A stretch of 41,571 nucleotides of DNA from Boseongicola sp. SB0665_bin_10 (lineage in GTDB: Bacteria > Pseudomonadota > Alphaproteobacteria > Rhodobacterales > Rhodobacteraceae): positions 1 to 41,571 of the forward strand of contig VXSG01000056.1 in the NCBI GenBank assembly GCA_009838075.1. Direction: 5' to 3'. Made by a program: the position numbers and the translations under genes. Shown piece after piece: positions 22,160-41,131 of this stretch; position 1 is the first letter of the stretch; each line of letters begins with the position of its first letter. The notes under the pieces are model-generated. The model ran no database searches. It was not told where the DNA came from and was given only the letters and a program-made list of their open reading frames with translations.

Positions 22160-22189
22160 TTGACGGCAACTGTCGCGCGCGGCTAATGT
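22160..22189 (+). promoter_or_regulatory. Putative promoter of the acyl-CoA dehydrogenase operon
   Basis: TTGACG (22160-22165) and TAATGT (22184-22189) are 18 bases apart. The start of transcription would fall inside the operator at 22188-22203, consistent with repression by steric block. Confidence 0.45.
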
Positions 22190-22203
22190 AACCATACAGT
22201 TAC
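22188..22203. promoter_or_regulatory. TetR-type operator, site A
   Basis: GTAACCATACAGTTAC is an inverted repeat (GTAAC, 6-base spacer, GTTAC) 15 bases before the ATG of the acyl-CoA dehydrogenase. It shares arm sequence and spacing with sites at 36786, 36888 and 41116, and its left arm with 27586. Confidence 0.7.
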
Positions 22204-22217
22204 TAGCGGGACTTGCG

Positions 22218-23357
22218 ATGCGGATATCCGACACGAATGCACAGGTTCGTGACGCGGCACGTGCCTTTGCCGAAAACGCGATACGCCCCGTCGCGGTGGA
22301 ACTTGACGCGGAAGAGCGGTTTCCGGGCGAGCTCTACGAAGAGATGGGCCAACTCGGCCTCTTCGGGATCAGCGTTCCGGAAGAGATGGGAGGCCCTGGA
22401 CTGGACACGCTGGCCTACGCCCTGGTGATGGAAGAGCTTTCGCGTGGATATGCCTCGGTCGCAGACCAGTGCGGGTTGATCGAGTTGGTCGCAACCCTTC
22501 TTGTGCAACATGGCACCGCGGCGCAGCGCGAGCGCCTGCTCGGCGACGTGATGGCGGCAAGGACCAGGGTCGCGTACTGCATAACGGAGGCGGAGGCGGG
22601 GACCGATGTTGCAGCAATCCGCACCGAAGCGGTTCGTGACGGCGAAGGGTGGATCCTCAACGGCAGCAAGATCTGGATACACAATGCGCCGGTGGCTGAT
22701 GTCGGCTTTGTTCTGGCCCGTACGGACCGGGAAGCCGGGCACCGGGGCATGTCAATCTTCATTGTCGACCTCCACGCCTCGGGAGTCGAGAAGGGCCCCA
22801 GGGAGCACAAGATGGGACAGCGGGCCAGCCAGGTAGGGGCGCTGTCCTTCTCCGACGTGCGACTCGCTGAAGATGCGCTCCTGGGCGAAGAGGGCCGGGG
22901 CTTTCACGTCATGATGAGCGTGCTCAACAAGGGGCGCGTTGGCATTGGTGCGCTCGCCGTAGGCATTGCCCAGGCGGGTCTGGAGGCCGCGCTGGGATAC
23001 GCGCAGGAACGTCACCAGTTCAAGCAGGCGATTTCGGAATTCCAGGGGATCCAGTTCATGCTCGCTGACATGGCAAAGGACATCGAGGCCGCGCGTCTCC
23101 TCGTTCATTCGGCGGCGGAAAGGGTTGACCGGGATCAGGATCCGACAATGGCTTGCAGCATGGCGAAGTGCTTCGCAAGCGACATGGCGGTGCAGCGGAC
23201 GGCTGATGCGGTTCAGGTTTTCGGCGGTTCGGGATATATCAGGGGCATGGAAGTGGAGCGACTGTACCGAGATGCGAAGATCACGCAGATCTACGAGGGC
23301 ACGAACCAGATTCAGCGCACGATCATCGCGCGCGAACTCCTGAAGAACGGGGCATGA
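22218..23357 (+). CDS. Acyl-CoA dehydrogenase
   Basis: The 379-residue FAD enzyme would introduce an alpha-beta double bond into an acyl-CoA. Hallmarks are CITEAEAGTDVAAIRTEA (flavin and substrate loop), GWILNGSKIWIHNA, the arginine-containing RHQFKQAISEFQGIQF, VQVFGGSGYIRGMEVERLYRD and the catalytic glutamate in QIYEGTNQIQR close to the C-terminus. It opens a four-gene operon; the stop overlaps the next start (ATGA). The operator at 22188-22203 lies immediately upstream. The acyl chain is unknown; neighbouring sugar-type genes argue against ordinary fatty-acid oxidation. Confidence 0.94.
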   Translation: MRISDTNAQVRDAARAFAENAIRPVAVELDAEERFPGELYEEMGQLGLFGISVPEEMGGPGLDTLAYALVMEELSRGYASVADQCGLIELVATLLVQHGTAAQRERLLGDVMAARTRVAYCITEAEAGTDVAAIRTEAVRDGEGWILNGSKIWIHNAPVADVGFVLARTDREAGHRGMSIFIVDLHASGVEKGPREHKMGQRASQVGALSFSDVRLAEDALLGEEGRGFHVMMSVLNKGRVGIGALAVGIAQAGLEAALGYAQERHQFKQAISEFQGIQFMLADMAKDIEAARLLVHSAAERVDRDQDPTMACSMAKCFASDMAVQRTADAVQVFGGSGYIRGMEVERLYRDAKITQIYEGTNQIQRTIIARELLKNGA

Positions 23358-24130
23358 TCGTGAGCGGTCAGGCGGCACTGGTGACTGGATCGACCCGAGG
23401 AATCGGCTTGGGAAGCGCCTTGGCCCTCGCGCGGCAGGGATTTGCGGTGGCGGTGAACGGGCCGGCCGATGATGGCGAATTGGCGGCGGCTGCGGAGCAG
23501 GTCGCCGCAACGGGCGCACGTGTTGCCGCCATCCCGCTTGACGTGGCGGATCTCGACGCTCACGGCGCTGCCATTGCCGACGCGGAAGACGCAATCGGTC
23601 CCCTGACCACGCTCGTGAACAACGCTGGCGTCAGCGTGATGACTCGTGGCGATCCCGTCGACGTTTCCGAACAAAGCTGGGATCGGTGCATGGCGGTCAA
23701 TGCCAAGGCGATGTTCTTCATGACGCAGGCGTTTGCAAGGAGGCTGCTGGCTCGGAATCGGGACGCGTCGCTCTTCCATTCAATCATCAACGTCACGTCG
23801 TCCAATGCGGAGGCGGTCGCAGTCGCGCGCGTGGAGTATTGTGCCTCAAAGGCGGGGGCGGCAATGGTGTCCAAGGCTTGGGCAGTGCGGCTCGGAGCCG
23901 AGGGCATTGCGGTCTACGACGTGCGGCCCGGCGTCATTGACACGGACATGACTTCGCCGATGATCAACGAGTATGCGCGCAGGGCCGGGGAGGGGCTGAC
24001 GCTCGTTCCGCGCGTGGGACAACCCGGGGAAGTCGGCGAAGTCATCGCGTCGCTCGCATCCGGGAAGCTCCCCTACACGACCGGTCAGGTCATACATGCC
24101 GATGGCGGCATGCTGGTGTCGAGGTTCTGA
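23354..24130 (+). CDS. Short-chain dehydrogenase/reductase (FabG-like)
   Basis: The 258-residue oxidoreductase has LVTGSTRGIGLGSALALARQG (cofactor loop), LVNNAGVSVMT, the catalytic INVTSSNAEA...VEYCASKAG (Ser-Tyr-Lys), VRPGVIDTDMT and a C-terminal TGQVIHADGGM. It most likely oxidises a 3-hydroxyacyl-CoA or a sugar hydroxyl with NAD(P). It overlaps the acyl-CoA dehydrogenase by 4 bp, so it is translationally coupled. The unusual 3-ketoacyl-reductase-like position next to a dehydrogenase suggests it takes the 3-hydroxyacyl dehydrogenase step of the CoA route. Confidence 0.93.
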   Translation: MIVSGQAALVTGSTRGIGLGSALALARQGFAVAVNGPADDGELAAAAEQVAATGARVAAIPLDVADLDAHGAAIADAEDAIGPLTTLVNNAGVSVMTRGDPVDVSEQSWDRCMAVNAKAMFFMTQAFARRLLARNRDASLFHSIINVTSSNAEAVAVARVEYCASKAGAAMVSKAWAVRLGAEGIAVYDVRPGVIDTDMTSPMINEYARRAGEGLTLVPRVGQPGEVGEVIASLASGKLPYTTGQVIHADGGMLVSRF

Positions 24131-24131
24131 A

Positions 24132-25283
24132 ATGAAGATTTCGCTTCCTGGCGCCGGTGGCTCACTTGAGGACTACGTCATGCAGGGCACGCCGATCGAG
24201 GCCGAGCCGTTGGGCCCCGATCCGGTCCGGGTCGTGCTTTCGGCCGCGCACGTGGTGGCAGATCCCTTCACTGGCAACGATCCGTCCGGGCCGGCAACGC
24301 TCGACTGGGAAGCGACAATGGCGTTTCGCCGCCACTTGGCAGGTCTGGGCCTTGGCATCGCCGAAGCGATGGATACGGCGCAGCGAGGAATGGGTCTCGG
24401 CTGGCCGGAGGCGCTGGAACTCATTCGGCGAACGAAGGCGGAGTTTCCTGACGCCCTGGTGTTCAATGGCTGTGGCACAGACCACCTGATGCCGGGCGAC
24501 GCGCAAAGCCTCGACGACGTTCGGCGCGCGTACCTGGAACAGGTCGAGGCAGTTCAGGACATTGGCGGACGCGTGGTCGTCATGGCCAGTCGTGCCTTGG
24601 TGCAGGTCGCGAAAACGCCGGAAGATTACGTCCGGGTCTACGAGGACGTGTTGGCGACCTGCGAGCGGCCCGTGATCCTTCATTGGCTGGGTGACATGTT
24701 CGATCCGGCGCTTGCCGGTTATTGGGGCAGCGATCGCTTCGAGGCCGCGCTCGAGACGGTGCTCGCCGTAATCGGAGCGAACGCTGCGAAGGTTGACGGC
24801 ATCAAGATCTCCCTCCTGGACAAGGAGAAGGAGATCGTCATGCGCCGCCGCCTGCCCGAAGGCGTGAAGATGTACACTGGCGACGACTTCAACTACCCAG
24901 AGCTGATTGCCGGCGACGAAATCGGGTACAGCCATGCGCTGCTTGGCATCTTCGACCCGCTGGCCGTTGCCGCCGCCAAGGCCGTTGGCCAGCTGGGGCG
25001 TGGGGATGTGGCGGGCTTCCACGCGACACTGGAACCGACGGTGCCATTGGCGCGCCTCATTTTCCGTGCGCCGACGCAGCATTACAAGGCGGGCATCGTG
25101 TTCCTTGCATGGCTGAACGGATTCCAGGAGCATTTCGTGATGCCGGGGGGAGCCCAGTCGATGCGGCCCTTGCCATATTTTGTCGACTGCTTCCGGTTGG
25201 CGGATCAGGCCGGGCTCCTTTCGGACCCGGATCGTGCCATTGCGCGGATGAGGGCGCTCATGGGGCTCTATGGCATTGCGTGA
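24132..25283 (+). CDS. DUF993 family TIM-barrel protein
   Basis: The 383-residue protein resembles DUF993, a distant relative of the dihydrodipicolinate synthase fold with few or no characterised members. Recognisable stretches are RVVLSAAHVVADPFTGND, MDTAQRGMGLGWPEALELI, VFNGCGTDHLMPG, ILHWLGDMFDPALAGYWG, DGIKISLLDKEKEI (a candidate Schiff-base lysine) and KMYTGDDFNYPELIAGD. An aldolase- or lyase-type reaction is plausible from the fold. It follows the SDR by 1 bp and overlaps the next gene by 14 bp, so it belongs to the same pathway. Substrate unknown. Confidence 0.82.
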   Translation: MKISLPGAGGSLEDYVMQGTPIEAEPLGPDPVRVVLSAAHVVADPFTGNDPSGPATLDWEATMAFRRHLAGLGLGIAEAMDTAQRGMGLGWPEALELIRRTKAEFPDALVFNGCGTDHLMPGDAQSLDDVRRAYLEQVEAVQDIGGRVVVMASRALVQVAKTPEDYVRVYEDVLATCERPVILHWLGDMFDPALAGYWGSDRFEAALETVLAVIGANAAKVDGIKISLLDKEKEIVMRRRLPEGVKMYTGDDFNYPELIAGDEIGYSHALLGIFDPLAVAAAKAVGQLGRGDVAGFHATLEPTVPLARLIFRAPTQHYKAGIVFLAWLNGFQEHFVMPGGAQSMRPLPYFVDCFRLADQAGLLSDPDRAIARMRALMGLYGIA

Positions 25284-26124
25284 CTTTACGGGCGACCTCG
25301 GCGCGTTGGCCCTGAACACGGCTACGCTTGGCCATAACCTCGACGGTTACGGTGCGGGCTGGCCTGTGGAACGCGTGATCGACGCCTGTGCCGAGCGCGG
25401 CTTTGCCGGCCTGGTGTTTTGGCGGCGCGAGATCGGTACGCGCGCGCATGAAATTGGCGAGCGCGTCCGCGCCAGCGGCATGAAGGTCGTGGGGCTTTGT
25501 CGAACCCCGTACATCACCGGTCCCGGCGCCCCCTCAACGCTTGACGAGGCACGCGAGTCCGTCGACATGGCGGCTGCGCTTGGGACCGATGTGGTCACAA
25601 TCGTGACCGGCGGCACCGAACTTGGCACCAAGGGTGTCGAGGAAAGCCAGAAACTTCTGGCTGAGCGCGTCGCAAGCCTTGCGGAATACGCGGCAAAGTG
25701 CGGCGTCCATCTGGCCCTGGAGCCACTCAACCCAATGTTTGGCGGCAGCAGGACATGCCTGTTCACAGTGGCCGAGGCAATCCGCGTCTGCGACCAGATT
25801 GGCGCGCCAAATGCTGGCGTGGCAATCGATGTCTACCATGTCTGGTGGGACACGACCCTGACCGCTACGCTGCATGGGGCAGGCTCGCATCGGATTCTCG
25901 GATACCATTTGTGCGATTGGCTCGCCGATACCGGCGACATGCTTCTGGACCGCGGCATGATGGGCGACGGTGTCGCGGACCTGAAGAACATCCGGCGTGC
26001 CGTCGAAGGCGCGGGATACGAGGGCGCGTGCGAAGTCGAGGTGTTTTCGGCCGGCAACTGGTGGCAACGTGATCCGGCGGAAGTCCTGGACACGGTTGTC
26101 GAGCGGTTCAGGACCCAATGCTGA
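25270..26124 (+). CDS. Sugar isomerase/epimerase-like TIM barrel (AP-endonuclease 2 fold)
   Basis: The 284-residue protein has the metal-binding pattern of the xylose-isomerase-like family: a glutamate in LALEPLNPMFGG, aspartate and histidine in VAIDVYHVWWD, a histidine in ILGYHLCDW and a glutamate in ACEVEVFSAGNWW. Family members epimerise or isomerise sugars and inosose, or act as lyases on 3-keto-glycosides. The ATG lies inside the end of the DUF993 gene (14-bp overlap). Clustering with GMC and zinc dehydrogenases that could make a 3-keto sugar makes a lyase or epimerase role attractive but unproven. Confidence 0.88.
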   Translation: MALRDFTGDLGALALNTATLGHNLDGYGAGWPVERVIDACAERGFAGLVFWRREIGTRAHEIGERVRASGMKVVGLCRTPYITGPGAPSTLDEARESVDMAAALGTDVVTIVTGGTELGTKGVEESQKLLAERVASLAEYAAKCGVHLALEPLNPMFGGSRTCLFTVAEAIRVCDQIGAPNAGVAIDVYHVWWDTTLTATLHGAGSHRILGYHLCDWLADTGDMLLDRGMMGDGVADLKNIRRAVEGAGYEGACEVEVFSAGNWWQRDPAEVLDTVVERFRTQC

Positions 26125-26873: not shown

Positions 26874-27512
26874 TCAGGAGAGCACGAGCCGCATGACTGT
26901 GTCGATGTTGAAGTCGAGACGGCTTTCGAGCGCCTTCGAGTTCATGAAGTCGCGTTCGAAAAGAATCGTGCCGGTGAACCGGTTTGTCAGGTAGTAGTAG
27001 CCGATGGCCGCGATCGTGATGTTGAGTTGCACGGGATCGATGCCCGGACGGAAGACTCCGTCGGCAACGCCGCGGTCAAGGACTTCCTGAACCATGCTGA
27101 CAAACCTGCGGCTCGCTGACCGCAATCGCTCGGACTCCTTCAGGTGCTTGCCACGATGCAGGTTCGCGCTGTTGACCAGGGTGATGAATTCCGGGTTGTC
27201 GAGGCAATACGCCCATGTGAAACGGACAAGACGTTCAAGGGCCTCGCGAGGAGGCAGGTGGTCAAGCTCCAGATCCTGTTCGGCGCTGCGAATGTCAAGG
27301 TAGGCTTCCACGAGGACCGTGCGAAACAGGTCCTCCTTGCCTCCAAAATAGTGATAGATCATGCGCTTGTTGGCACAGGCCCTCTTGGCGATCTCGTCCA
27401 CGCGCGCGCCGGCGAGGCCGAGTCGCGCAAACTCCGACTTGGCGGCCGCAAGAATCCTGGCCCTTGTTGCGCTTGCGTCGCGGGTCCGAGGCTGTTCCTC
27501 CACAACTCTCAC
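26874..27512 (-). CDS. TetR-family transcriptional regulator
   Basis: The 212-residue repressor has an N-terminal helix-turn-helix at about residues 18-64 (RARILAAAKSEFARLGLAGA, VDEIAKRACANKRMIYHYFG, GKEDLF) and a helical ligand-binding C-terminal domain (RFTWAYCLDNPEFITLV...FVSMVQEVLDRGVADGVFRPGIDP). The GTG start follows AAGGA; an ATG one base off-frame is followed directly by a stop. It is divergent from the ABC importer. The GTAAC-N6-GTTAC palindromes in nearby promoters are the natural binding-site candidates, with a partial copy in its own promoter region. The ligand may be a pathway intermediate, perhaps an acyl-CoA. Confidence 0.92.
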   Translation of the reverse strand: MRVVEEQPRTRDASATRARILAAAKSEFARLGLAGARVDEIAKRACANKRMIYHYFGGKEDLFRTVLVEAYLDIRSAEQDLELDHLPPREALERLVRFTWAYCLDNPEFITLVNSANLHRGKHLKESERLRSASRRFVSMVQEVLDRGVADGVFRPGIDPVQLNITIAAIGYYYLTNRFTGTILFERDFMNSKALESRLDFNIDTVMRLVLS

Positions 27513-27585: not shown

Positions 27586-27601
27586 GTAACTAACTGGTGC
27601 G
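27586..27601. promoter_or_regulatory. TetR-type operator, degenerate site B
   Basis: GTAACTAACTGGTGCG keeps the left arm and the CTGGT core of the palindrome found at 36786 and 36888, but its right arm is changed (GTGCG for GTTAC). It lies 18-33 bases after the TTGACA -35 box, between tetR and the importer genes. Confidence 0.5.
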
Positions 27602-27718: not shown

Positions 27719-28828
27719 ATGTCCTTCATCAAGAACTTCATTGAGCAGGAGACGGTATCACGTCGGAACTTCCTGCTTGCCTCGGCCTATGGCATTTCCG
27801 GCGCCGCGGCGATGCGCATGTTCGGCCCATCGCCGGTGCAGGCGGCAACCTTTGCCGATCCGACCATTGCCTGGTCCTACCGCAACCGGACGAACCCCTA
27901 CTGGAACGAGATCGTGTCCGGCGGGGAGGCCTTCGTCGAGAGCCTCGGCAAACCTAAGGAATTCCTGACGCACCTGATCAACGAGGGCTCATCGGAGAAG
28001 TCGCTGGCCGACGTCAAGGCGCTGCTGGCAAAGACCAACGGCGAACTGGCTCTTGCCATCGACACCAACGACGCTCCGAACGCTCGCCCGGTGGTCGAGG
28101 CCTGCGTCGAGGCGGGGGCCTATGTGTCCACGCTCTGGAACAAGACGGACGACCTGCACCCGTGGGATTTCGGGGACAACTATGTCAGCCACATGTCCTG
28201 GTCGGACGAAGGCCCAGCGGAACGCACTGCGCGCATTCTGCTCGATGCGATCGGCGGAAAGGGCGGCGTCGTGCATCTTGGCGGCATCGCCTCGAACAAC
28301 CCTGCGATCGAGCGCCTGGACGGCCTGAAGAACGCGCTGAAGGACTATCCGGACGTCGAGCTTCTCGACGCGCAGCCGGCCGACTGGGACACCCAGAAGG
28401 CGGCGCAGATCATGGCCTCGTTCATCACGCGCTACGGCGACGAAATCACCGGCGTGCACTGCGCAAACGACACGATCGGCTACGGCGTTCTCGAGGCGCT
28501 TCGCGCCGAGGGCATGGACATACCGATCGTCACCTACGACGGCAACCCGCAGGCGGTCGACCTGGTCGCCGAGGGCAAGATCCTGGCAACCGTCTTCACC
28601 AACCCGCATTGGGGCGGCGGCATCACCGCGTCGCTCGCCTATCACGCTGCCGTCGGGCACTTCAAGCCGTCGGACGAACCGCACGAGCATCGGGAGTTCT
28701 ACGGGCCGACGATCTTCATCACGCCGGACGACGCGCGTGAATTCAAGGCGAACTACCTTGACAACGTGCCGACCTACGACTGGCAGGACTTCTGGGGCCC
28801 GTCGAACGGCCAGATCATGTACAAGTGA
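27719..28828 (+). CDS. ABC transporter sugar-binding protein (Tat-exported)
   Basis: The 369-residue periplasmic binding protein belongs to the ribose/xylose-binding type I fold. It has a twin-arginine signal, SRRNFLLAS (RR at 15-16), with cleavage near residue 43 after VQAA. The mature part starts ADPTIAWSYRNRTNPYWNEI, and VHCANDTIGYGVLEALRAEG and VTYDGNPQAVDLVAEGKI are family hallmarks. GAGG precedes the ATG. It heads a five- to six-gene operon (binding protein, permease, ATPase, permease, dehydrogenase, cupin). Ligand probably a sugar, polyol or glycoside. Confidence 0.93.
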   Translation: MSFIKNFIEQETVSRRNFLLASAYGISGAAAMRMFGPSPVQAATFADPTIAWSYRNRTNPYWNEIVSGGEAFVESLGKPKEFLTHLINEGSSEKSLADVKALLAKTNGELALAIDTNDAPNARPVVEACVEAGAYVSTLWNKTDDLHPWDFGDNYVSHMSWSDEGPAERTARILLDAIGGKGGVVHLGGIASNNPAIERLDGLKNALKDYPDVELLDAQPADWDTQKAAQIMASFITRYGDEITGVHCANDTIGYGVLEALRAEGMDIPIVTYDGNPQAVDLVAEGKILATVFTNPHWGGGITASLAYHAAVGHFKPSDEPHEHREFYGPTIFITPDDAREFKANYLDNVPTYDWQDFWGPSNGQIMYK

Positions 28829-28938
28829 CAAGGTGACCCGTGGGCGCGGCCGGGCAAGCCGGTCGCGTCGCCTTGACACTTGACAGGAACCCTGTTGCGG
28901 CCCTTCCAACGAGCGGGTCAGGCACGGAGGGCCGGACG

Positions 28939-29982
28939 ATGACCGACATGTCCGCACAGACGGAACCGCTCGGAGGCCTGCTGACGAGGGACCGCATCGT
29001 CAAATGGGCTCCGATCCTCGTGCTCGTCGCGCTGGTGCTGCTGTTTCCGTTCTTTGAATTCCTGGAAGATCTTCTCGAGGGCAAGGATCACTTCTACCTT
29101 CTCGATTCGCGGTTCTTCTCCATTCGAAACGCGGCTCGCATCGGCATCGCGGCCGCGCCGGCGCTCATGGTGGCCGTCGGCGTGACCTTCATCATCATCA
29201 TGGGCTCCATCGACCTTTCGATGGAAGGCACGATCTCGGTCTGCGCCGTGCTCTTCGCCTTCGCATTCCTGGGCTGGGGCGGCACCTTGGCCAGCTGGGC
29301 CTGGCTGGCGATCCCGACGGCCCTCCTGGTCGGGGCGCTGCTGGGCTTCGTCAACGGGCTGATCCATGTCCGGCTCAAGATCCCGAGCTTCATGGCGTCC
29401 CTGGCCATGGGTTTCGTGGGCACGGGGTTCGCCTTGGTCCTGACCGGCGGCGACCGCCTGCGCGTCGAGGACGAACTCTTCCGTTCGCTCCTGACGGAGC
29501 GCTGGCTGAATTTCCCGATCATGTGCCACGTGGCGCTCGCCTTCCTTCTGCTTGCCTGGTTCATCCAGTCCCACACCGCTCTCGGTCGGAACTTCTATGC
29601 GGTGGGCGGCGGCGAGCAGTTGGCGCAATCCAGCGGCCTGAACGTGGCCCGCGTGCGGGTCATGGGATTCACGCTTGCCGGCATCTTCTTCGCCGTGGGC
29701 GCCCTGCTGGCCGTGGGCCGCATCGGCATTGCCGAGACTGCAACCGGCAACAACTTCATGTTCGTGTCGATCACTGCCGTCGTGGTCGGCGGCACGGCAC
29801 TATGGGGCGGGATCGGCGGCGTCTGGAACACTCTCGTCGGCGTGCTGATCGTCAATGTCATCAACAACGGAATGGTCGTGATCGGGTTGCCGTCGTACGT
29901 GCAGGACGGCGTGCTCGGCACGCTCGTGATCCTGGCGGTCGCGCTTTCGACCAACCGCAAGTCCGTCACCTTCGTCAAGTAG
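28939..29982 (+). CDS. ABC transporter permease (ribose type)
   Basis: The 347-residue inner-membrane permease has about eight to ten hydrophobic helices. The conserved GVTFIIIMGSIDLSMEGTI, VNGLIHVRLKIPSFMASLAMG and the C-terminal GGTALWGGIGGVWNTLVGVL blocks are those of the RbsC/AraH/XylH family. The start ATG follows GGAGG; the frame extends upstream without family similarity. It pairs with the second permease at 31510, suggesting a heterodimeric channel. Confidence 0.92.
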   Translation: MTDMSAQTEPLGGLLTRDRIVKWAPILVLVALVLLFPFFEFLEDLLEGKDHFYLLDSRFFSIRNAARIGIAAAPALMVAVGVTFIIIMGSIDLSMEGTISVCAVLFAFAFLGWGGTLASWAWLAIPTALLVGALLGFVNGLIHVRLKIPSFMASLAMGFVGTGFALVLTGGDRLRVEDELFRSLLTERWLNFPIMCHVALAFLLLAWFIQSHTALGRNFYAVGGGEQLAQSSGLNVARVRVMGFTLAGIFFAVGALLAVGRIGIAETATGNNFMFVSITAVVVGGTALWGGIGGVWNTLVGVLIVNVINNGMVVIGLPSYVQDGVLGTLVILAVALSTNRKSVTFVK

Positions 29983-32462: not shown

Positions 32463-33506
32463 ATGCGCGCGGCGGTGCTTGTCGAGCCGGGCCGGTTCGA
32501 GCTGCGCGAGGTTGCCCGTCCCGATCCGGGGCCGGGCGAAGCGCTGATCCGCATCGCGCGCACTGGCATCTGCGGCACAGACATGCACATTTTCCACGGG
32601 GCCTACGCGTCCGAGAGCCTGCCGATGGTGCCGGGTCATGAGTTCACCGGCCATGTCGCTGCGCTCGGACAGGATGTCGAGGGCATCGAGGAAGGCCTGC
32701 CCGTCGTCGTCGACATGAACATCGGCTGCACCCGCTGCTACTGGTGCCGCCAGAACGAGATCCTGAACTGCCCGAAGATGCAGCAGATGGGCATCACAAT
32801 CGACGGCGCCTTCGCGGAATTCCTCTCGGTGCCAGCCCGGCTGGTCATACCCGCCCCGGGACACGTGGCGCCCGAGGTCCTTGCGCTTACCGAGCCGCTC
32901 GCCTGCGTCGTGCGCGCCGCGCGCAAATCGAAGGTCACATTCGGCCGATCGGTAGCCGTCATCGGTGCCGGTCCCATCGGCAACCTCCACGTCCAGCTCA
33001 TGCGCACGATCGGTGCGGCCCCGATCATCGTTTCGGACATCAGTCCCGAGCGTGTGCAGATGGCTCTCGATGCCGGAGCCGATGTCGGCGTCAGTGAACC
33101 CGCGGAGCTGAATGCGGCCGTGATGGGCGCCACCGCCGGGCGTGGCGCGGACATCGTGATCGAAAGCGTCGGCAGTCCGGCGCTCTACGCGGAAGCTCAG
33201 GAACTCGTGCGCAAGGGCGGTCATCTCATGGCCTTCGGACTGACCGAGCCGGGCGAGTCCCTCGACCTGGACATTCTGACGACGATCCTGGAGGAAAACT
33301 CGGTTCGGGGTTCGGTCGCCGGCATGGGCGAGGACATGCATGACGCGCTGACACTGCTCGTCCATGGCAGGATCATGACCGCGCCCTTCACGGGTGCGGC
33401 CTATCCGCTCGGCGACATCCAGGCGGCATTCGACAGCTTTGCCGATCGGCCACAGGATCTGAAGACCCAAATCGTGATGCATCAGGATCAGGAGAAAGCC
33501 CCATGA
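32463..33506 (+). CDS. Zinc-dependent medium-chain alcohol (sugar/polyol) dehydrogenase
   Basis: The 347-residue enzyme resembles sorbitol and threonine dehydrogenases. Catalytic zinc ligands are in GICGTDMHIFHG and GHEFTGHV; structural zinc cysteines are in CTRCYWCRQNEILNC. The NAD site is VAVIGAGPIGNLHVQLM. It would oxidise a hydroxyl of the imported sugar or polyol. A GTG at 32451 overlapping the permease stop is an alternative start four codons upstream. It overlaps the cupin gene by 4 bp. Because it sits in the importer operon, it probably acts early in the pathway. Confidence 0.93.
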   Translation: MRAAVLVEPGRFELREVARPDPGPGEALIRIARTGICGTDMHIFHGAYASESLPMVPGHEFTGHVAALGQDVEGIEEGLPVVVDMNIGCTRCYWCRQNEILNCPKMQQMGITIDGAFAEFLSVPARLVIPAPGHVAPEVLALTEPLACVVRAARKSKVTFGRSVAVIGAGPIGNLHVQLMRTIGAAPIIVSDISPERVQMALDAGADVGVSEPAELNAAVMGATAGRGADIVIESVGSPALYAEAQELVRKGGHLMAFGLTEPGESLDLDILTTILEENSVRGSVAGMGEDMHDALTLLVHGRIMTAPFTGAAYPLGDIQAAFDSFADRPQDLKTQIVMHQDQEKAP

Positions 33507-34060
33507 AGACAGAAGCATACGGCTCCAGGCCGGAAGGCCGCATTCCCAACAGCCGCTTTCCGTTGCTGGTGCATCGTGATGCCATCCCGGGAGGCGGCGC
33601 CGACGCGATCAAGGCCCGGTTTCGCGAGAACTGCTGGTCGAACAACTGGGAGTATCCCGGGATCTACAGGTATGCCCATTTCCATTCCACGAGCCATGAG
33701 TGCCTGGGATGTGCCGGTGGCTGGATGGAGTTTTCGCTTTCCGTCGAGGGCTGGACGCGCGTGAGGCTCGGTGTCGGCGACGTCATCGTGATGCCCGCCG
33801 GGGTGAGCCATGAGATGGTGGACTGTTCCGACGACATAATGATGGTAGGCGGCTATCCAGATGGACGCGACTGGGACAACATCCAGGAGAGGTTCTTGAC
33901 GGACGAGCTGTTTCGCCAGGCGGCGAAGCGGATCATGATGCTGCCGATTCCGCCAAGGGATCCGGTGACAGGAGAGGCGCTTCACCAGTGGCTTGACGCG
34001 CCGTCTTCGGTGGATGGCGGCTGGAACGATTTTCGTGACGGGCTGGATGCCACGTCATAG
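33503..34060 (+). CDS. Cupin-domain protein
   Basis: The 185-residue cupin has a conserved beta-barrel segment. HFHSTSHECLGCAGGWMEFSL gives the histidine/glutamate metal motif 1 and VGDVIVMPAGVSHEMVD gives motif 2. Many relatives bind a metal and act as isomerases or sensors on sugars or acids; the function here is unknown. The ATG overlaps the dehydrogenase stop (ATGA), so the two are coupled. It ends 177 bp before the GMC oxidoreductase gene. Confidence 0.85.
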   Translation: MKTEAYGSRPEGRIPNSRFPLLVHRDAIPGGGADAIKARFRENCWSNNWEYPGIYRYAHFHSTSHECLGCAGGWMEFSLSVEGWTRVRLGVGDVIVMPAGVSHEMVDCSDDIMMVGGYPDGRDWDNIQERFLTDELFRQAAKRIMMLPIPPRDPVTGEALHQWLDAPSSVDGGWNDFRDGLDATS

Positions 34061-34237: not shown

Positions 34238-35839
34238 ATGACGGAAGCGGGCTTCGATTACGTGATTGTCGGTGGCGGGTCAGCGGGCTGCGTCCTGGCG
34301 AACAGGCTGAGCGAGGATCCGGACGTGCGGGTTCTTCTTCTTGAGGCGGGCGGCAGGGACCGACATCCGCTCATTCACATGCCTGTCGGTTTCGCGAAGA
34401 TGACGGACGGACCGCATACCTGGGGATATGCGACGGCGCCGCAGAAAAACGCGAACAACCGCGAAATCGCCTACGCGCAGGCACGGGTGATCGGAGGTGG
34501 CTCTTCAATCAATGCGGAGGTTTTCACGCGCGGCAACCCGGTGGACTACGACCGCTGGGCGGAACAGGAAGGCTGTGACGGCTGGACGTTCAAGGACATA
34601 CAGCCATACTTTCTCCGCTCGGAGGGCAATGCCATTCTCTCGGGAGACTGGCACGGGACCGACGGACCGCTCGCGGTCTCGAACATCCCCGACCCGCAAC
34701 CGATGACGCGCGCATTCGTGCAGTCGTGCCAGGAACTCGGCATTCCGTACAACCCGGACTTCAACGGACCGGTTCAGGCGGGGTGCGGCGTATACCAGAC
34801 CACGACCAGATACGGTCGGCGCTGCTCTGCCGCCGTCGGCTACCTGAGGCCGGTTCTGGACCGGTCGAACCTCACCGTGGAGACCGGCTGCCTCGTCGAG
34901 CGAATCAAGTTCGATGGCACGCGCGCCGTAGGTGTCGCGTATTCGCGCGGCCGCGCACGCAAGACGGTACGGGCGGAGATCGAGATCCTGGTGACTTCCG
35001 GGGCGGTCGGGACGCCGAAGATCATGATGCTTTCAGGCGTCGGACCCGCGGCGCACCTGCGCGAGCACGGCATCGATGTCGTGCATGACCTGCCGGGTGT
35101 CGGCGAAAACCTGAACGATCATTTCGGCATCGACATCGTGGCCGAGCTGAACGGGCACTACAGCCTGGACAAGTACAACAAGCCGCATTGGGCGCTTTGG
35201 GCGGGCATGGAATACGTGCTGTTCCGCTCGGGCCCGATCACGTCCAACGTGGTCGAGGGCGGTGCGTTCTGGTTCGCTGGTGATGACAGGTCGGTGCCCG
35301 ACCTGCAGTTCCACTTCCTCGCGGGTGCCGGAGCCGAGGCCGGAGTTCCTAGCGTGCCCAAGGGCTCGTCGGGCATCACGCTCAATTCCTACACGGTCAG
35401 GCCAAAGAGCCGCGGCACTGTGCGGCTGCGCTCTGCCGACCCGTCGTCGCCGCCTGTCGTGGACCCGAATTTCCTGGCCGAGCCGGACGATCTCAGGACG
35501 AGCGTTGAAGGCGTGAAGATCAGTCGCGAGATCTTCTCGCAGCCCTCGCTTCAAAAGCACATCAGGACCATCAGGTGTCCTGATGATGGCGTGAAGACAC
35601 AGGCGGACTACGAAGCTTACGCGCGGCAGTACGGGCGCACATCCTACCATCCGACCTGCACGTGCAAGATGGGCAGCGACGAGATGTCAGTGGTCGACCC
35701 GCAATGCCGGGTTCGCGGCCTGGACGGGATACGCGTCTGCGACAGTTCGATCATGCCGAGTCTCGTGGGATCGAACACGAATGCACCAACGATCATGATT
35801 GCCGAGAAGGCAAGCGACATGATCCGGGGCAATCACTGA
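34238..35839 (+). CDS. GMC-family FAD oxidoreductase
   Basis: The 533-residue enzyme of the choline/glucose dehydrogenase family starts with YVIVGGGSAGCVLANRLSEDP (FAD fold), and has ARVIGGGSSINAEVFTRGNP (GMC signature 1), VTSGAVGTPKIMMLSGVGP (signature 2) and TSYHPTCTCKMG with the catalytic histidine. The C-terminal FAD block is VCDSSIMPSLVGSNTNAPTIMIAEKASD. No signal peptide is seen, so it is cytoplasmic. It could oxidise an alcohol or a sugar hydroxyl, for example to a 3-keto sugar. It is the last plus-strand gene before a convergent aldo/keto reductase. Confidence 0.93.
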   Translation: MTEAGFDYVIVGGGSAGCVLANRLSEDPDVRVLLLEAGGRDRHPLIHMPVGFAKMTDGPHTWGYATAPQKNANNREIAYAQARVIGGGSSINAEVFTRGNPVDYDRWAEQEGCDGWTFKDIQPYFLRSEGNAILSGDWHGTDGPLAVSNIPDPQPMTRAFVQSCQELGIPYNPDFNGPVQAGCGVYQTTTRYGRRCSAAVGYLRPVLDRSNLTVETGCLVERIKFDGTRAVGVAYSRGRARKTVRAEIEILVTSGAVGTPKIMMLSGVGPAAHLREHGIDVVHDLPGVGENLNDHFGIDIVAELNGHYSLDKYNKPHWALWAGMEYVLFRSGPITSNVVEGGAFWFAGDDRSVPDLQFHFLAGAGAEAGVPSVPKGSSGITLNSYTVRPKSRGTVRLRSADPSSPPVVDPNFLAEPDDLRTSVEGVKISREIFSQPSLQKHIRTIRCPDDGVKTQADYEAYARQYGRTSYHPTCTCKMGSDEMSVVDPQCRVRGLDGIRVCDSSIMPSLVGSNTNAPTIMIAEKASDMIRGNH

Positions 35840-35939: not shown

Positions 35940-36758
35940 TCAGTCCCACTTGGGCGCCCAAGGCACCAGGTCTTCGCCGACGATCCGATAGCCTGTCTTG
36001 GTGAGCTTCTCGATTCGCGCCATGTCCACGCTGGACAGAGTGAAGTCCATGATGTCGAAATTCGCCCGGATGTTCTCGGGATTGGTCGACATGGTGTTCA
36101 CGCTGACGCCTTTCTGGACGATCCATCGCAGCACCACCTGGCCCGCCGTCTTTCCGTATGCAGCGCCGATCTCGGCGAAGTCGGGGTGCTTGAACACCTC
36201 GCCGCGAGCGACCGAGCAATAGGATGACAGCGGAATGCCAACCTCGTTGGCGCCAGCGAGCAGCCGGTCCTGGTTAAGGAGCGGATGGAACTCGACCTGG
36301 TTGGTCACGATTGGTGCGTCGACGATGGATGTCGCGTCCTTCATCATCTGGGCCGTGTAGTTCGACACGCCGATGTACCTTGCCAGCCCCTGGTCATGTG
36401 CGGCCTGCAGAAGCTTCAGCGACGGCGCAATGTTGCCGTCCATCGGAGGCCAGTGCAGCAGCAGAACGTCCACGCAGTCGACCTGCAACGCCTTCAGGCT
36501 CTGCTCGACCGACGCCATGAATCCGTCCTCTCCGAAATTGTCCGGATGAACCTTTGTCGTGATGCAGAGATCTTCGCGCGGGATGCCCGTTGCCTTCAAT
36601 GCTCCACCGGTCTCGCGCTCGTTTCCGTACATCTGCGCAGTGTCGAATGCCCGGTAACCTGCTTCGGCCGCGGCAAGAATCGCCCGTTTCGCGACATCTC
36701 CTTCCAGCGGAAAAGTGCCGAAGGCGCGCTGATGGGTCTTTTGGAAGTATATGTTCAT
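35940..36758 (-). CDS. Aldo/keto reductase (first)
   Basis: The 272-residue enzyme has the AKR tetrad: aspartate and tyrosine in DTAQMYGNE, lysine in ITTKVH and histidine in VLLLHWPP. RYIGVSNYT, TNQVEFHPLLNQ and the C-terminal PENIRANFDIMDFTLSSVDMARI are as expected. It would reduce a carbonyl with NADPH. GGAGGAG six bases before the ATG sets the start. It is divergent from the CoA-transferase gene; operator C lies 28 bases upstream of its ATG. It is convergent with the GMC gene. Confidence 0.93.
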   Translation of the reverse strand: MNIYFQKTHQRAFGTFPLEGDVAKRAILAAAEAGYRAFDTAQMYGNERETGGALKATGIPREDLCITTKVHPDNFGEDGFMASVEQSLKALQVDCVDVLLLHWPPMDGNIAPSLKLLQAAHDQGLARYIGVSNYTAQMMKDATSIVDAPIVTNQVEFHPLLNQDRLLAGANEVGIPLSSYCSVARGEVFKHPDFAEIGAAYGKTAGQVVLRWIVQKGVSVNTMSTNPENIRANFDIMDFTLSSVDMARIEKLTKTGYRIVGEDLVPWAPKWD

Positions 36759-36785: not shown

Positions 36786-36801
36786 GTAACTCACTGGTTA
36801 C
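36786..36801. promoter_or_regulatory. TetR-type operator, site C
   Basis: GTAACTCACTGGTTAC, 5-6-5 inverted repeat, 28 bases upstream of the aldo/keto reductase ATG. Same arms and spacing as sites A and D. Confidence 0.75.
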
Positions 36802-36883: not shown

Positions 36884-36887
36884 TCAT

Positions 36888-36903
36888 ATAACCAACTGGT
36901 TAC
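36888..36903. promoter_or_regulatory. TetR-type operator, site D
   Basis: ATAACCAACTGGTTAC, with TAACCA...TGGTTA almost fully symmetric, is 33 bases upstream of the CoA-transferase start. It covers the predicted transcription start. Confidence 0.75.
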
Positions 36904-36936: not shown

Positions 36937-38508
36937 TTGACAAAGCAGAAGAGTGCAGCCGATGCCGTCGCATTGATCCCGGACAACGCAATTGTCGCCA
37001 TCAACTCCTCGAGCGGGTTGTGCTGCCCTGACCTGGTGCTACAGGCGCTAGGCGAAAGATTTGAAGCCGAAGGATCTCCGACCAACCTCACGTCGATTCA
37101 TCCCATCGCCGCCGGGGACATGTTCGGCGTCAAGGGTGTGGACCATATCGCGAAGCCCGGATGCCTGTCGAAGATCATCGGCGGTAGCTATCCGTCGGGC
37201 CCATCCAGGTCCGACCCGCCGCTCATCTGGCAGATGATCGCTTCGAACCAGGTCAAGGCTTACAACCTGCCTTCAGGCATCGTCTTCGACATGTTGCGGG
37301 AGGGAGCCGGGCATCGCCCCGGGGTCCTTACCAAGGTCGGCATGGACACGTTCGTGGACCCCGACCAGGAAGGCGGCGCCATGAACGCCGCCGCCGCCGC
37401 CGAGCCCATCGTCAAGCGCGTGGAATTCGAGGGCGAAGACTGGCTTTACTTCGCCGCGTTGCGCCCTGACGTCGCCATCATTCGCGCGACGACCGGCGAC
37501 GAACGCGGCAATCTCGGCTTCAAGTCCGAAGGCGCCTATCTCGGCGCGATGGAGTTGGCGCTCGCCGCGCACAATTGTGGCGGAACCGTCATTGCCCAGG
37601 TGCGGCATGTGACGCAAAATGGCTCGCTGCGTCCCCACGATGTCCATGTGCCCGGCATTCTTGTCGATGCACTGGTCGAGGCGCCGGACATGCTGCAGAC
37701 CACCGCAACGACCTACGATCCGGCGATATCCGGTGAGCTCATCCGCCCGATCGACAGTTTCCGGAAAATGGACTTCGGCGTACCCAAGATCATTGCGCGG
37801 CGCGTGGCACAGGAACTTTGCAAGGGATGGGCGGTGAACATCGGTTTCGGCGTGTCGGCCAACGTGCCGCGCGTGTTCATCGAGGAAGGCTGCCACGGCG
37901 ATGTCACCTGGGTGATCGAGCAGGGCGCGATCGGCGGCGTACCATTGCTGGACTTCAAGTTTGGTTGCGCGGCCAATGCCGACGCCTTCGTGACTTCGCC
38001 GCACCAGTTCACCTACTTCCAGGCCGGGGGCTTCGACGCATCGCTATTGTCGTTTCTCGAAATCGACGCGGACGGCTCGGTCAACGTGTCCAGGCTGAAA
38101 TCGACCCCGCACAGGACGGCGGGCGCCGGTGGATTCGTCGACATCACGGCTCGGGCTCGGCGGATCGTGTTCTCCGGAACTTTCAACGCCGGCGCGAAAA
38201 TGCGCATCGAAAACGGCAGGCTGGTGATCGACGCCGAGGGACACACGGCCAAGGTCGTGCCCAAGGTGGACCATGTCTCGTTCTCCGGACGGCGTGCGGT
38301 CGCAACGGGCCAGGAAGTCACCTATGTCACCGAGCGCTGTGTCATGCGGCTGATGGAGGATGGGCTCGAAGTGTGCGAGATCGCGCAGGGCGTGGACGTG
38401 CAGCGTGACGTGCTTGATCAGGCGGAAACGCCGCTAAAGGTGGCTGACGACCTGCGCGTGATGGACGCGGCGCTCTTTGATCCGGCCCCGTTCGGGCTCA
38501 TGCCATGA
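36937..38508 (+). CDS. Acyl-CoA:carboxylate CoA-transferase (fused alpha-beta subunits)
   Basis: The 523-residue family I CoA-transferase joins both halves (alpha to about 250, beta from about 280). The beta half contains FIEEGCHGDVTWVIEQGAIGG, whose EQGAIGG glutamate fits the catalytic residue that forms the thioester intermediate. It would activate a carboxylic acid using acetyl-CoA or succinyl-CoA as donor. It starts with TTG, preceded by GGGGAGG at ideal spacing; no ATG is nearby. It overlaps the enoyl-CoA hydratase by 4 bp. It is probably the entry step of the CoA branch. Confidence 0.9.
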   Translation: MTKQKSAADAVALIPDNAIVAINSSSGLCCPDLVLQALGERFEAEGSPTNLTSIHPIAAGDMFGVKGVDHIAKPGCLSKIIGGSYPSGPSRSDPPLIWQMIASNQVKAYNLPSGIVFDMLREGAGHRPGVLTKVGMDTFVDPDQEGGAMNAAAAAEPIVKRVEFEGEDWLYFAALRPDVAIIRATTGDERGNLGFKSEGAYLGAMELALAAHNCGGTVIAQVRHVTQNGSLRPHDVHVPGILVDALVEAPDMLQTTATTYDPAISGELIRPIDSFRKMDFGVPKIIARRVAQELCKGWAVNIGFGVSANVPRVFIEEGCHGDVTWVIEQGAIGGVPLLDFKFGCAANADAFVTSPHQFTYFQAGGFDASLLSFLEIDADGSVNVSRLKSTPHRTAGAGGFVDITARARRIVFSGTFNAGAKMRIENGRLVIDAEGHTAKVVPKVDHVSFSGRRAVATGQEVTYVTERCVMRLMEDGLEVCEIAQGVDVQRDVLDQAETPLKVADDLRVMDAALFDPAPFGLMP

Positions 38509-39287
38509 GCGAGTCACGGATATCGCTGACGATTGACGGTGCGATCGGGCAACTTCGGATTGCCAGGCCCGAAAAGCTGAACGCGCTGGACGCTGCCATG
38601 GTGGACGATCTTGCCGCGCGGTGCAGGGAGATCGAGCACCACGACGGCATCCGGGTTGTCGTTCTTTCGGGCGCGGGCAAGGCATTCTCCGCCGGCGGAG
38701 ACATCGAGGCCTGGTCCGCGGCGAGTCCGGAACGGTTCGGGCGGCACTGGATTCGCGACGGGCATGCGGCCTTCGACGCCCTGGCGAGACTGCGCCAGCC
38801 TGTCATTGCCGTCCTGGACGGGCACGCCTTGGGCGGCGGACTTGAACTGGCGGCCTGCGCGGACATTCGCATCGCGGAGGAACAAGTGAAGATCGGTCAA
38901 CCGGAATCCGGCCTTGGCATTGTTCCCGGCTGGTCAGGCACGCAACGTGCCGTCCGGCGCTTTGGCGCGCAGACCGTGCGACGCATGGCGTTGTTCGGCG
39001 AGGTGCTTGCGGCCGAAGAGGCGTTGAAGCTCGGCATCGTTGACCAAGTCGTGCCCGCCGGGACCGGTGCGGCGGCGGCGGCGGAGTTGGCGCGGGCCGT
39101 CCTGAGACGTGGGTCGCGGGCGACGGAACTCGTGAAGATGACGATCAACGCGGCCGAAGGCGAGGAACGCGAGCGCGTTCTCGAGGCAATCTCGGGTGCC
39201 CTGGCGGCAGGCACGGATGAACTGGCCGAGGGGCTTGCGGCGTTTCGGGAAGGCCGCAAGCCCGACTTTGGAAAGGGCGACACTTGA
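38505..39287 (+). CDS. Enoyl-CoA hydratase/isomerase family protein
   Basis: The 260-residue crotonase-fold enzyme has GKAFSAGGDIEAW (oxyanion loop), LDGHALGGGLELAACADIRIA and QPESGLGIVPGWSGTQR with the second catalytic glutamate (E in PESG). The C-terminal half is helical. It should hydrate a 2-enoyl-CoA. ATGA overlap with the CoA-transferase shows coupling, and its own stop overlaps the TTG start of the next gene. Confidence 0.93.
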   Translation: MSESRISLTIDGAIGQLRIARPEKLNALDAAMVDDLAARCREIEHHDGIRVVVLSGAGKAFSAGGDIEAWSAASPERFGRHWIRDGHAAFDALARLRQPVIAVLDGHALGGGLELAACADIRIAEEQVKIGQPESGLGIVPGWSGTQRAVRRFGAQTVRRMALFGEVLAAEEALKLGIVDQVVPAGTGAAAAAELARAVLRRGSRATELVKMTINAAEGEERERVLEAISGALAAGTDELAEGLAAFREGRKPDFGKGDT

Positions 39288-39595
39288 TTCGACATCTGGT
39301 CGCCCTGAGGTTCAAGGCCGGCACGCCCGAAGACGTGAAGCGGGGGCTCATGAACGATCTTGCCCGGCTGGACCAACGGATCGACGGCATTCTCGAATTT
39401 CGGGCGTGCCCGAACATCAGTGTCGAGGATCCGCTGGTGCGCGGCTATCGCGATCTTTTCTGGTTCGATTTCCGGGATGCATCCGTGCGCGACGCATATC
39501 TCGCTGACGAAGTGCATCAGAGGATCGGTGCACGGCTTGTCGCCGAGCTCGAAGGTGGTTCGGATGGCGTGTTCGTTCTCGATTTCGAGATGTGA
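39284..39595 (+). CDS. Dabb-domain (stress-responsive alpha/beta barrel) protein
   Basis: The 103-residue protein begins MIRHLVALRFKAGTPEDVK and has RACPNISVEDPLVRGYRDLFWFDF and YLADEVHQRIGARLVAELEGG, the order of Dabb (pfam07876) proteins. Dabb proteins are small dimeric barrels; some act on polyketide-like or aromatic substrates, most are uncharacterised. The TTG start overlaps the enoyl-CoA hydratase stop (TTGA), after GGAAAGGG. Only 6 bp separate its stop from the convergent MaoC gene. Confidence 0.85.
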   Translation: MIRHLVALRFKAGTPEDVKRGLMNDLARLDQRIDGILEFRACPNISVEDPLVRGYRDLFWFDFRDASVRDAYLADEVHQRIGARLVAELEGGSDGVFVLDFEM

Positions 39596-39601
39596 CGCCG
39601 A

Positions 39602-40051
39602 TCAGCGATAGGCCAGCAGGCGGTTGGTGCCGGATTGCACGCTCTCGCCGTGCTGGTTGGTGACATCGAAATCGAGCGTCAGGACGGCCTGATTTTCCTG
39701 TCTTGCCCTTTCAATTGCCGCAATGGTGATTGTCACTGCAATCCGGTCCCCGGCGAGCACGGGCCGATGGAAGCTCCAGTGCCAGTCCAACGAAGCCCTG
39801 GCGCGAAACTGTGCAGGCGCCCGGTTCTTCAACCCGTCGATCAAGGAAAGCACGAGCAGCCCGTGCGCGACCCGCGCATCAAATCCATGGCGGCGGGCTG
39901 CCTCGTCGGACATGTGAATCTCGAACCTGTCGCCCGTCATGTCGGCGAAGGCGTCGATCATCTCCGCCGTGACGGTCATGGACCCGCAATCGATGCGATC
40001 CCCGCGTGCAAGAGTGGCTGCGCCGTGGCGGCCCGGAGGAAGGAGGCGCAT
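39602..40051 (-). CDS. MaoC-like dehydratase (hotdog fold)
   Basis: The 149-residue protein resembles MaoC/PhaJ-type 2-enoyl-CoA hydratases: MIDAFADMTGDRFEIHMSDEAARRHGFDARVAHGLLVLSL, with the catalytic Asp and His in the DRFEIH part. It would hydrate or dehydrate an acyl-CoA. It is 31 bp downstream of the second aldo/keto reductase on the minus strand, so probably co-transcribed and under operator E. A longer frame upstream overlaps that gene and lacks family similarity. Confidence 0.87.
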   Translation of the reverse strand: MRLLPPGRHGAATLARGDRIDCGSMTVTAEMIDAFADMTGDRFEIHMSDEAARRHGFDARVAHGLLVLSLIDGLKNRAPAQFRARASLDWHWSFHRPVLAGDRIAVTITIAAIERARQENQAVLTLDFDVTNQHGESVQSGTNRLLAYR

Positions 40052-40082
40052 CGCGATGCCGTCCTGTCGTGCCGGTCTCGTT

Positions 40083-41099
40083 TCAGGCCGGCACGGGTGC
40101 ATCTTCGCGCAGCAGATTCATTTCCTTGAGCTCCGACCAGAAGTCGGCCGGGATCGGATGACTGAACCACGCCAGGTTTTCTTGCAGTTGCTCGACCGTG
40201 CGCGTGCCGGCGATGAAGCTCGGTATCGCGGGATGGGCGACAACGAATTGCAGCGCAGCGGCGGGCAGGGGCACGCCGTGGTCGGCACAGACCTGTTCGA
40301 TCTTTCCGACCCTTTCCATGATTTCCGGCGGTGCCGGCGCGTAGTTGTACTTTGCACCTTCGATCGCACCGGTTGCGAGGACCCCCGAGTTGAAACCACC
40401 GCCGATGACCACGGCAGCGCCGCGTTCCTCACAGAGCGGCAGGAATTCTTCCAGCGATTCCTGCTCCAGAAGCGTGTAGCGTCCGGCAAGAAGAAAGCAG
40501 TCGAAATCACGTTGCTTGAGCGCCTCGTGGCAGACCTCCCACTCGTTGACGCCGACACCGATGGCCTTGACCACGCCTTGATTGCGCAGTTCTTCCAGGG
40601 CGGCCCAACACGTGTCCATGGCTTGACGAAAGACATCGGGCTGTTCGTCGCCCCGCGTGAAGCGATCGACGTCGTGGATGAAGCAAATGTCCATCCTTTC
40701 GAGATTCAGCCTCTGCAGGCTGTCCTCGAACGCCCTCATCGTGCCGTCGTAGCTGTAATCGAAATGCAACGTGAACCGGCCTGCATTGGTCCAGGGCGCA
40801 AAGTCTATGTCGTCCCTTCGGGCAGGCTTCAGGACGCGGCCCACCTTGGATGACAGCACGAAGTCATCGCGGTTCTTCCAGCGCAGGCCGTGGCCGGTGC
40901 GCAGCTCCGAGAGTCCATGGCCGTACATCGGTGCTGTGTCATAGTAGCGGACTCCAGCGGCCCATGAAGCCTGTATCATCCCGTCAGAGGTCTCTTCGTC
41001 GATCTCGCGAAAGATGTTGCCAATGGGCGCCGTGCCGAATCCGAATGCCGTGACCTCCAGGTCGACGCGACCGAACTGCACCAAGGAATCAGGTTGCAT
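40083..41099 (-). CDS. Aldo/keto reductase (aldose 1-dehydrogenase-like, second)
   Basis: The 338-residue enzyme resembles D-threo-aldose / L-fucose 1-dehydrogenases and pyridoxal dehydrogenase-like AKRs. The tetrad is in DTAPMYGHG (Asp, Tyr), VLSSKVGRVL (Lys) and ICFIHDVDR (His). PSFIAGTRTVEQLQENLAWF is the C-terminal cofactor region. It would oxidise a free sugar at C1 to the lactone. GAGGAG precedes the ATG. Operator E lies 17 bases upstream of the start, overlapping the promoter. Confidence 0.92.
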   Translation of the reverse strand: MQPDSLVQFGRVDLEVTAFGFGTAPIGNIFREIDEETSDGMIQASWAAGVRYYDTAPMYGHGLSELRTGHGLRWKNRDDFVLSSKVGRVLKPARRDDIDFAPWTNAGRFTLHFDYSYDGTMRAFEDSLQRLNLERMDICFIHDVDRFTRGDEQPDVFRQAMDTCWAALEELRNQGVVKAIGVGVNEWEVCHEALKQRDFDCFLLAGRYTLLEQESLEEFLPLCEERGAAVVIGGGFNSGVLATGAIEGAKYNYAPAPPEIMERVGKIEQVCADHGVPLPAAALQFVVAHPAIPSFIAGTRTVEQLQENLAWFSHPIPADFWSELKEMNLLREDAPVPA

Positions 41100-41115
41100 G
41101 CGCGTTTCTCCTCAA

Positions 41116-41131
41116 GTAACTGTCTGGTTAG
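41116..41131. promoter_or_regulatory. TetR-type operator, site E
   Basis: GTAACTGTCTGGTTAG, one mismatch in the right arm of the GTAAC-N6-GTTAC palindrome, just upstream of the ribosome site of the second aldo/keto reductase. On the minus strand CTTGCC, 16 bases, TTTAAC forms a plausible promoter whose -10 box abuts it. Confidence 0.68.

Follow-up and report, generated by a model that had tools for sequence, protein, structure and literature searches.

The DNA considered here is a stretch of 41,571 nucleotides from Boseongicola sp. SB0665_bin_10 (contig VXSG01000056.1; the whole stretch is called the window below), which carries a catabolic gene cluster of about 19 kb and, within it, a gene for a TetR-family regulator (tetR). 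Comparison of this cluster with its relatives suggests that TetR is an autoregulated repressor that governs a local catabolic regulon through operators of the consensus RTAACYANNTRGTTAY, a reading to which we assign a probability of about 0.86. Such control is of an ordinary kind, and its support by a comparison of many genomes is unusually good. A preliminary description of the window had named four palindromes, at 22188, 36786, 36888 and 41116, each at a promoter or start of a different transcription unit, and had proposed a local regulon of tetR as the simplest explanation. The four palindromes are found exactly there, 14–33 bp before the start codons of an acyl-CoA dehydrogenase (ACAD), a CoA-transferase (CoAT) and two aldo/keto reductases (AKR1, with a re-assigned start, and AKR2), and the comparative evidence given below argues for the proposed regulon. 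A fifth, asymmetric site lies between tetR and the gene of a substrate-binding protein (SBP) of an ABC importer. The regulator and the predicted operators are:

22188–22203, no strand assigned: predicted operator GTAACCATACAGTTAC, 14 bp before the ACAD start, after a TTGAC box conserved in the genus
26874–27512, minus strand: TetR-family regulator (TetR_N and TetR_C_29; Pfam and orthologues), the proposed repressor
27586–27601, no strand assigned: predicted asymmetric operator GTAACTAACTGGTGCG (reverse complement CGCACCAGTTAGTTAC) in the divergent region between tetR and SBP
36786–36801, no strand assigned: predicted operator GTAACTCACTGGTTAC, 27 bp before the re-assigned AKR1 start
36888–36903, no strand assigned: predicted operator ATAACCAACTGGTTAC, 33 bp before the CoAT start
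41116–41131, no strand assigned: predicted operator GTAACTGTCTGGTTAG, 16 bp before the AKR2 start

TetR is a member of the TetR/AcrR family, with 47.6 bits against PF00440 (cut-off 24) and 141.9 bits against PF17938 (cut-off 26.2). The recognition-helix stretch ANKRMIYHYFG is near-identical among TetR orthologues of 63–95% identity, and is altered in four TetR relatives of 39–46% identity. A Pfam scan of 21 predicted proteins from the 19-kb block and its edges detected no second regulator, in agreement with the earlier statement that tetR encodes the only transcription factor of the block.

Within the window, GTAACN6GTTAC with at most two mismatches has 7 matches against 3.63 expected, and 7 matches were reached in 4 of 100 shuffles. 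This count is only mildly unusual, and tests across the genome and across genomes were therefore carried out. In the genome of 4,798,335 bases the exact pattern occurs three times, twice inside the window; with at most one mismatch there are 16 distinct places, 4 of them inside the window (binomial P about 9e-6). The core pattern TAACYNNNNRGTTA, defined after the sites of relatives had been seen, occurs five times in the 4.80 Mb genome, and four of these occurrences, including that at 41117, are in the window (binomial P about 3e-8). On a matrix built from the symmetric sites the four palindromes score 26.3–30.4, with a maximum of 17.5 in shuffled windows. Confinement of sites to the linked cluster, which a local regulon implies, is thus seen for four of the five core sites. 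The fifth (C24:~52533, L132:7533) lies directly upstream of an open reading frame (ORF) that resembles a RelE/HigB-type toxin by eye, and hence looks unrelated. It was considered as a distant member of the regulon and set aside because of this neighbour; possibly it is the toxin module's own operator.

Among genomes of the same genus, wherever the regions are present, sites are kept at ACAD, AKR1, CoAT and AKR2 and in the interval from tetR to SBP; the one exception is locus L120, which lacks SBP next to tetR. The region of the ACAD site is largely invariant across 7 genus sequences. In the divergent region of AKR1 and CoAT, a start-to-start distance of 102 bp separates the two sites in each of the 7 genus regions that have both (window included), and DNA looping between the operators at 36786 and 36888 is possible; in some other genomes this region holds one site, or two at slightly different spacing. 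Sites with another gene order are found in four other genera (genomes G009, G021, G033 and G036), and across both Rhodobacterales and Hyphomicrobiales the sites reappear at orthologous starts. A scan of named genomes with the TetR alignment yielded 347 relatives, from which 80 loci, mostly of Rhodobacterales and Hyphomicrobiales by title, were kept. Core sites, 67 in total, are present in 44 of these 80 loci, many of which extend only 10 kb from tetR and leave the target promoters outside.

A systematic test covered 90 loci (10 duplicates dropped, window included) and orthologues of at least 58% identity with at least 150 bp of upstream sequence, and counted core sites within 250 bp upstream. 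For orthologues of at least 85% identity, a core site is present at ACAD in 7/7 cases, at CoAT in 7/7, at AKR2 in 4/4 and at AKR1 in 7/7; for more distant orthologues the respective counts are 11/14, 11/12, 6/7 and 7/11. This amounts to 46/51 for ACAD, CoAT and AKR2, and to 60/69 with AKR1. Cluster-internal control genes have a core site in 1 of 297 regions; these are the genes of the importer (ABC, perm1, perm2), a short-chain dehydrogenase (SDR), DUF993, TIM barrel, an enoyl-CoA hydratase (ECH), Dabb, cupin and GMC proteins. AKR1 was measured from a start at 36794, which overlaps its own site, so its count in the genus mostly registers the site on the CoAT side; ACAD and AKR2 share a region in some genomes, and the cases are not independent. 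A motif-free search for 5-mer palindromes (spacers 0–12) in 36 orthologous upstream regions returned GTAAC-N6-GTTAC at the top with 22/36, as compared to a highest count of 2 for any palindrome in 100 shuffles that kept base content only. Some of the genomes from which the core and asymmetric patterns were derived also belong to the test samples.

The system is also present in Paracoccus versutus (pTAV3) and in Sinorhizobium meliloti 1021 (pSymA). In the latter, TetR is 68% identical, ACAD as well as CoAT have core sites before them, and tetR is flanked by the asymmetric operator. In seven loci (L124, L126, L151, L167, L207, L220, L221) a core site is found before a GMC oxidoreductase gene too, which suggests a larger regulon there; in six of the seven this gene is an additional copy, with about 50% identity to that of the window.

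Association of the sites with the regulator gene was assessed in 248 sampled genomes of the family, 26 of which have a CoAT of at least 66% identity. Eighteen were counted as tetR-positive, 17 by an orthologue at E <=1e-60 and G133 by a tetR fragment at a contig edge; G140, in which a weaker relative of TetR reaches 2.6e-56 with the alignment, was counted as tetR-negative. A core site within 300 bp before CoAT is present in 17/18 tetR-positive and 1/8 tetR-negative genomes (Fisher 9e-5; 16/17 and 2/9 before G133 was moved). Distant CoAT homologues (56–61%) have a core site in 0/26 and 0/5 cases; 25 of the 26 are in tetR-negative genomes and one is a second copy in G108, so that 30 of the 31 come from genomes lacking this tetR. 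The same-genus genome G001, with no core site, has only distant matches to tetR, CoAT (41%) and ACAD (38%), and neither AKR2 nor SBP has a match in it at E 1e-60. SBP was detected in only one of the 8 tetR-negative genomes, G140, so that tetR and the importer tend to be missing together.

The site at 27586 had been called a degenerate copy of the palindrome. Its location between tetR and the importer is confirmed; the word degenerate does not fit, since 63 of the 81 regions upstream of tetR contain the pattern GCACYANNTRGTTA, typically as TAAYGCACYANYTRGTTACTT, and 67 contain it in a looser version; the site at 27586 is therefore a conserved variant and not a product of decay. One of its halves is the standard TRGTTAC, and in the other YGC replaces GTA; examples of this half-site are seen at L298:24646 and L297:19805. 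Among the 14 tetR regions without the pattern, the usual SBP is not seen adjacent in 11; in the other three (L191, L217, L129) the interval from tetR to SBP holds a symmetric or near-symmetric site instead. Of the 248 family genomes, 13 contain the 17-mer GCACYANNTRGTTACTT, and 12 of these have tetR, which corresponds to 12/20 tetR-positive and 1/228 tetR-negative genomes (Fisher 2e-14); the same pattern read backward occurs in 1/248. One copy (G087) lies at the CoAT promoter, and that in the tetR-negative G107 has no cluster gene within 1.5 kb. With this site, which is weak in the window alone, TetR would have a palindromic operator next to its own gene, as members of its family do.

Several observations weigh against the proposed regulon. 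The tetR-negative genome G195 has core sites before CoAT and in the ACAD/AKR2 region, tetR-negative G257 has one before ACAD, and tetR-negative G110 has a non-core site with exact arms before CoAT. The tetR-positive G036 lacks a core site before CoAT, yet has 17 core sites genome-wide, so that confinement to the linked cluster fails there. Relatives without this tetR have between 0 and 11 core sites, and number alone is not diagnostic; in view of these counts, the evidence rests on placement and not on number. In the systematic test the core site is missing at 9 of 69 target regions, or 5 of 51 without AKR1 (ACAD in L196, L213 and L215; CoAT in L130; AKR2 in L125; AKR1 in L130, L186, L196 and L215). 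The asymmetric site GTAACTAACTGGTGCG scores 6.2 on the matrix of the symmetric sites, which lies within the range of the shuffled windows and is thus not significant in the window sequence alone, and the 17-mer is absent from 8 of 20 tetR-positive genomes. A sigma-70 scan found 3 promoter-like places (3.1 expected), none of them at the operator sites. For some of the tetR-negative genomes the assembly may be at fault: a missing contig or assembly gap is likely in G195, where a contig ends inside perm2, and a gap is likely in G188, where a contig starts inside the ATPase gene (this genome has no core site before CoAT); in G257 a gap is only possible, given that SBP is lacking from 7 of the 8 tetR-negative genomes. 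The preliminary description held that a motif common across the genome, or kept in relatives that lack this tetR, would speak against its reading. With five core sites, four of them in the window, the motif is not common, and it largely tracks tetR, with G195, G257, G036 and others as exceptions.

Sites in G257 and G195, where no tetR was detected, would agree with a regulator encoded elsewhere that binds the symmetric sites and leaves TetR in control of its own promoter and the importer only. We consider this unlikely, because the CoAT site tracks tetR and no other regulator was found among the cluster proteins scanned. In addition, the asymmetric operator adjoining tetR has the same right half TRGTTAC as the symmetric sites, and the region adjoining tetR holds a symmetric or near-symmetric site both where tetR lies by CoAT (L178, L213) and where it lies by SBP (L191, L217, L129). 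The sites are real and placed as described, and the regulon of TetR is supported as far as sequence goes.

Most TetR proteins repress transcription by blocking RNA polymerase. In the genus, the sites form conserved blocks that adjoin TTGAC boxes, most notably in the ACAD region, with TTGAC[TG] 18 bp before TAA[AT]GTAAC, and in the SBP region, with TTGACA 17 bp before the asymmetric site. The sites are over or just past these likely promoters, which we infer, as the sigma-70 scan calls none of them, and therefore fit repression of this kind. The proximity to conserved TTGAC boxes, and the distances of 14–33 bp to the start codons, would also suit a shared promoter or RNA-level element in place of a protein operator. 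This explanation appears very improbable, given that the symmetric sites are near-perfect inverted repeats with fixed arms and a variable centre, and that they are largely absent before CoAT orthologues in genomes without tetR. Chance similarity of unrelated sequences, to which the mildly raised count in the window alone would point, is practically excluded by clustering in the genome and conservation across species.

Based on this dataset, we hypothesize that a TetR dimer would bind the 16-bp operator of consensus RTAACYANNTRGTTAY and block RNA polymerase at the ACAD operon, AKR1, the CoAT operon and AKR2. Through the asymmetric operator at 27586, TetR may control itself and the operon of the ABC importer, alcohol dehydrogenase and GMC oxidoreductase. 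Release of TetR from its sites would be brought about by a compound of the pathway, which may be a CoA thioester or the substrate that is imported. The asymmetric operator is the less ordinary part of this system, and its conservation suggests graded control of importer and enzymes. Tentatively, and at somewhat less than even odds, AAYGCACYANNTRGTTACTT may represent a weakened half-site that selection has kept in Rhodobacterales and Hyphomicrobiales, and that sets a hierarchy in which regulator and importer have basal expression and are induced first, with the CoA-pathway enzymes tightly off under the symmetric sites.

The other genes of the cluster are:

22218–23357, plus strand: ACAD, first gene of its operon (Pfam)
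23354–24130, plus strand: SDR (Pfam)
24096–25283, plus strand: DUF993 protein (Pfam; the P. versutus orthologue is annotated as dihydrodipicolinate synthase family)
25270–26124, plus strand: xylose-isomerase-like TIM barrel (Pfam)
27719–28828, plus strand: sugar-type ABC substrate-binding protein SBP, first gene of the importer operon (Pfam)
28840–29982, plus strand: ABC permease 1 (Pfam)
29993–31498, plus strand: ABC ATPase (Pfam)
31510–32454, plus strand: ABC permease 2 (Pfam)
32463–33506, plus strand: zinc alcohol dehydrogenase (translation; Pfam)
33503–34060, plus strand: cupin-like protein (weak match, below the Pfam cut-off)
34238–35839, plus strand: GMC oxidoreductase (Pfam)
35940–36758, minus strand: aldo/keto reductase AKR1 (start re-assigned to the ATG at 36758)
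36937–38508, plus strand: acyl-CoA:acetate/3-ketoacid CoA-transferase CoAT, first gene of its operon (Pfam; orthologue annotation)
38505–39287, plus strand: ECH (Pfam)
39284–39595, plus strand: Dabb (stress-responsive A/B barrel) protein (Pfam)
40083–41099, minus strand: aldo/keto reductase AKR2 (Pfam)

Judged from gene order, ACAD, SDR, DUF993 and TIM barrel would form a first operon, and SBP, permease, ATPase, permease, zinc alcohol dehydrogenase, cupin-like protein and GMC oxidoreductase the importer operon. CoAT, ECH and the Dabb protein would form a third, with AKR1 and AKR2 on the minus strand on either side. The ORF first taken as AKR1, with its start at 36794, overlaps the site at 36786. 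The ATG at 36758 is the likely start; it is preceded by GGAGGAG and is common to 6 of 7 aligned sequences. By annotation, the cluster of P. versutus pTAV3 additionally includes a glycerate kinase, an aldehyde dehydrogenase and an electron-transfer flavoprotein subunit. The S. meliloti locus encodes a protein that matches glycerate 2-kinase models below their cut-offs, and an aldehyde dehydrogenase relative. The gene content, taken together with these neighbours, suggests a pathway in which a sugar- or polyol-like compound would be imported, oxidized to an acid, activated with CoA and degraded by steps resembling beta-oxidation, with glycerate as one product.

Relatives of both the DUF993 protein (24096–25283) and the adjacent TIM-barrel protein are also encoded in G014 (L137), near a TetR of 42% identity, possibly a second case of this pairing, with a different operator and a related regulator. 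Outside the cluster, an ORF at 152–871 near the window edge matches Cas12f1-like/TnpB TNB domains and is probably a transposon-associated piece of TnpB. A separate upstream block at 7930–14043 encodes a DHDPS-family protein, an aldehyde dehydrogenase, an FAD oxidoreductase, an SDR and an MttB-family methyltransferase.

These data would give a TetR clade, of whose function no description was found in the literature, both an operator and a regulon, and would tie about a dozen enzymes, including the DUF993 protein, into one pathway. Since S. meliloti 1021, which is tractable in the laboratory, carries the system on pSymA, bench tests are practical, and the ligand of the regulator and, through it, the substrate become directly testable. 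The conserved asymmetric operator would offer a natural case in which to study how the strength of operators sets the order in which import and catabolism are induced.

With coverage of subscription papers being partial, the literature yielded no description of this regulon, and the available portions of PMC5343134 and PMC11387232 hold no account of it. Searches for DUF993 and for the RutR box string returned no papers.

Among known systems, RutR resembles the present regulator in belonging to the TetR family, in its palindrome of about 16 bp and in the ranking of hidden Markov models, and differs from it in its target genes. The RutR consensus has the inner CCA-NN-TGG seen here, with different outer bases of the half-sites. 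RutR is the TetR-family pyrimidine regulator of E. coli and binds a palindrome of approximately 16 bp, as stated in the accessible part of PMC10891134. The present regulator is not RutR: against the RutR model TIGR03613 it reaches E 1.1e-13 and 51.5 bits (cut-off 368; 57.9 bits for the S. meliloti orthologue), and its neighbours are ABC importer, ACAD, CoAT, ECH, AKR and GMC genes, with no rut genes.

A proteobacterial comparison of TetR-family regulons (FabR, FadP, LiuQ, PsrA, RutR), as far as its accessible text goes, is of the same comparative-genomic kind, and none of the TetR groups in that text matches in gene content (PMC5343134). Weak sequence similarity links TetR to the KstR2 chain (7.9e-6) and to the PsrA model (7.6e-6). 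KstR, KstR2, PaaR and PsrA are TetR repressors of CoA-dependent catabolism, and their operators are unlike those described here. The likeness to these four would lie in the local control of an acyl-CoA pathway, in operators placed by gene starts, and in a ligand that is likely a CoA thioester or the substrate.

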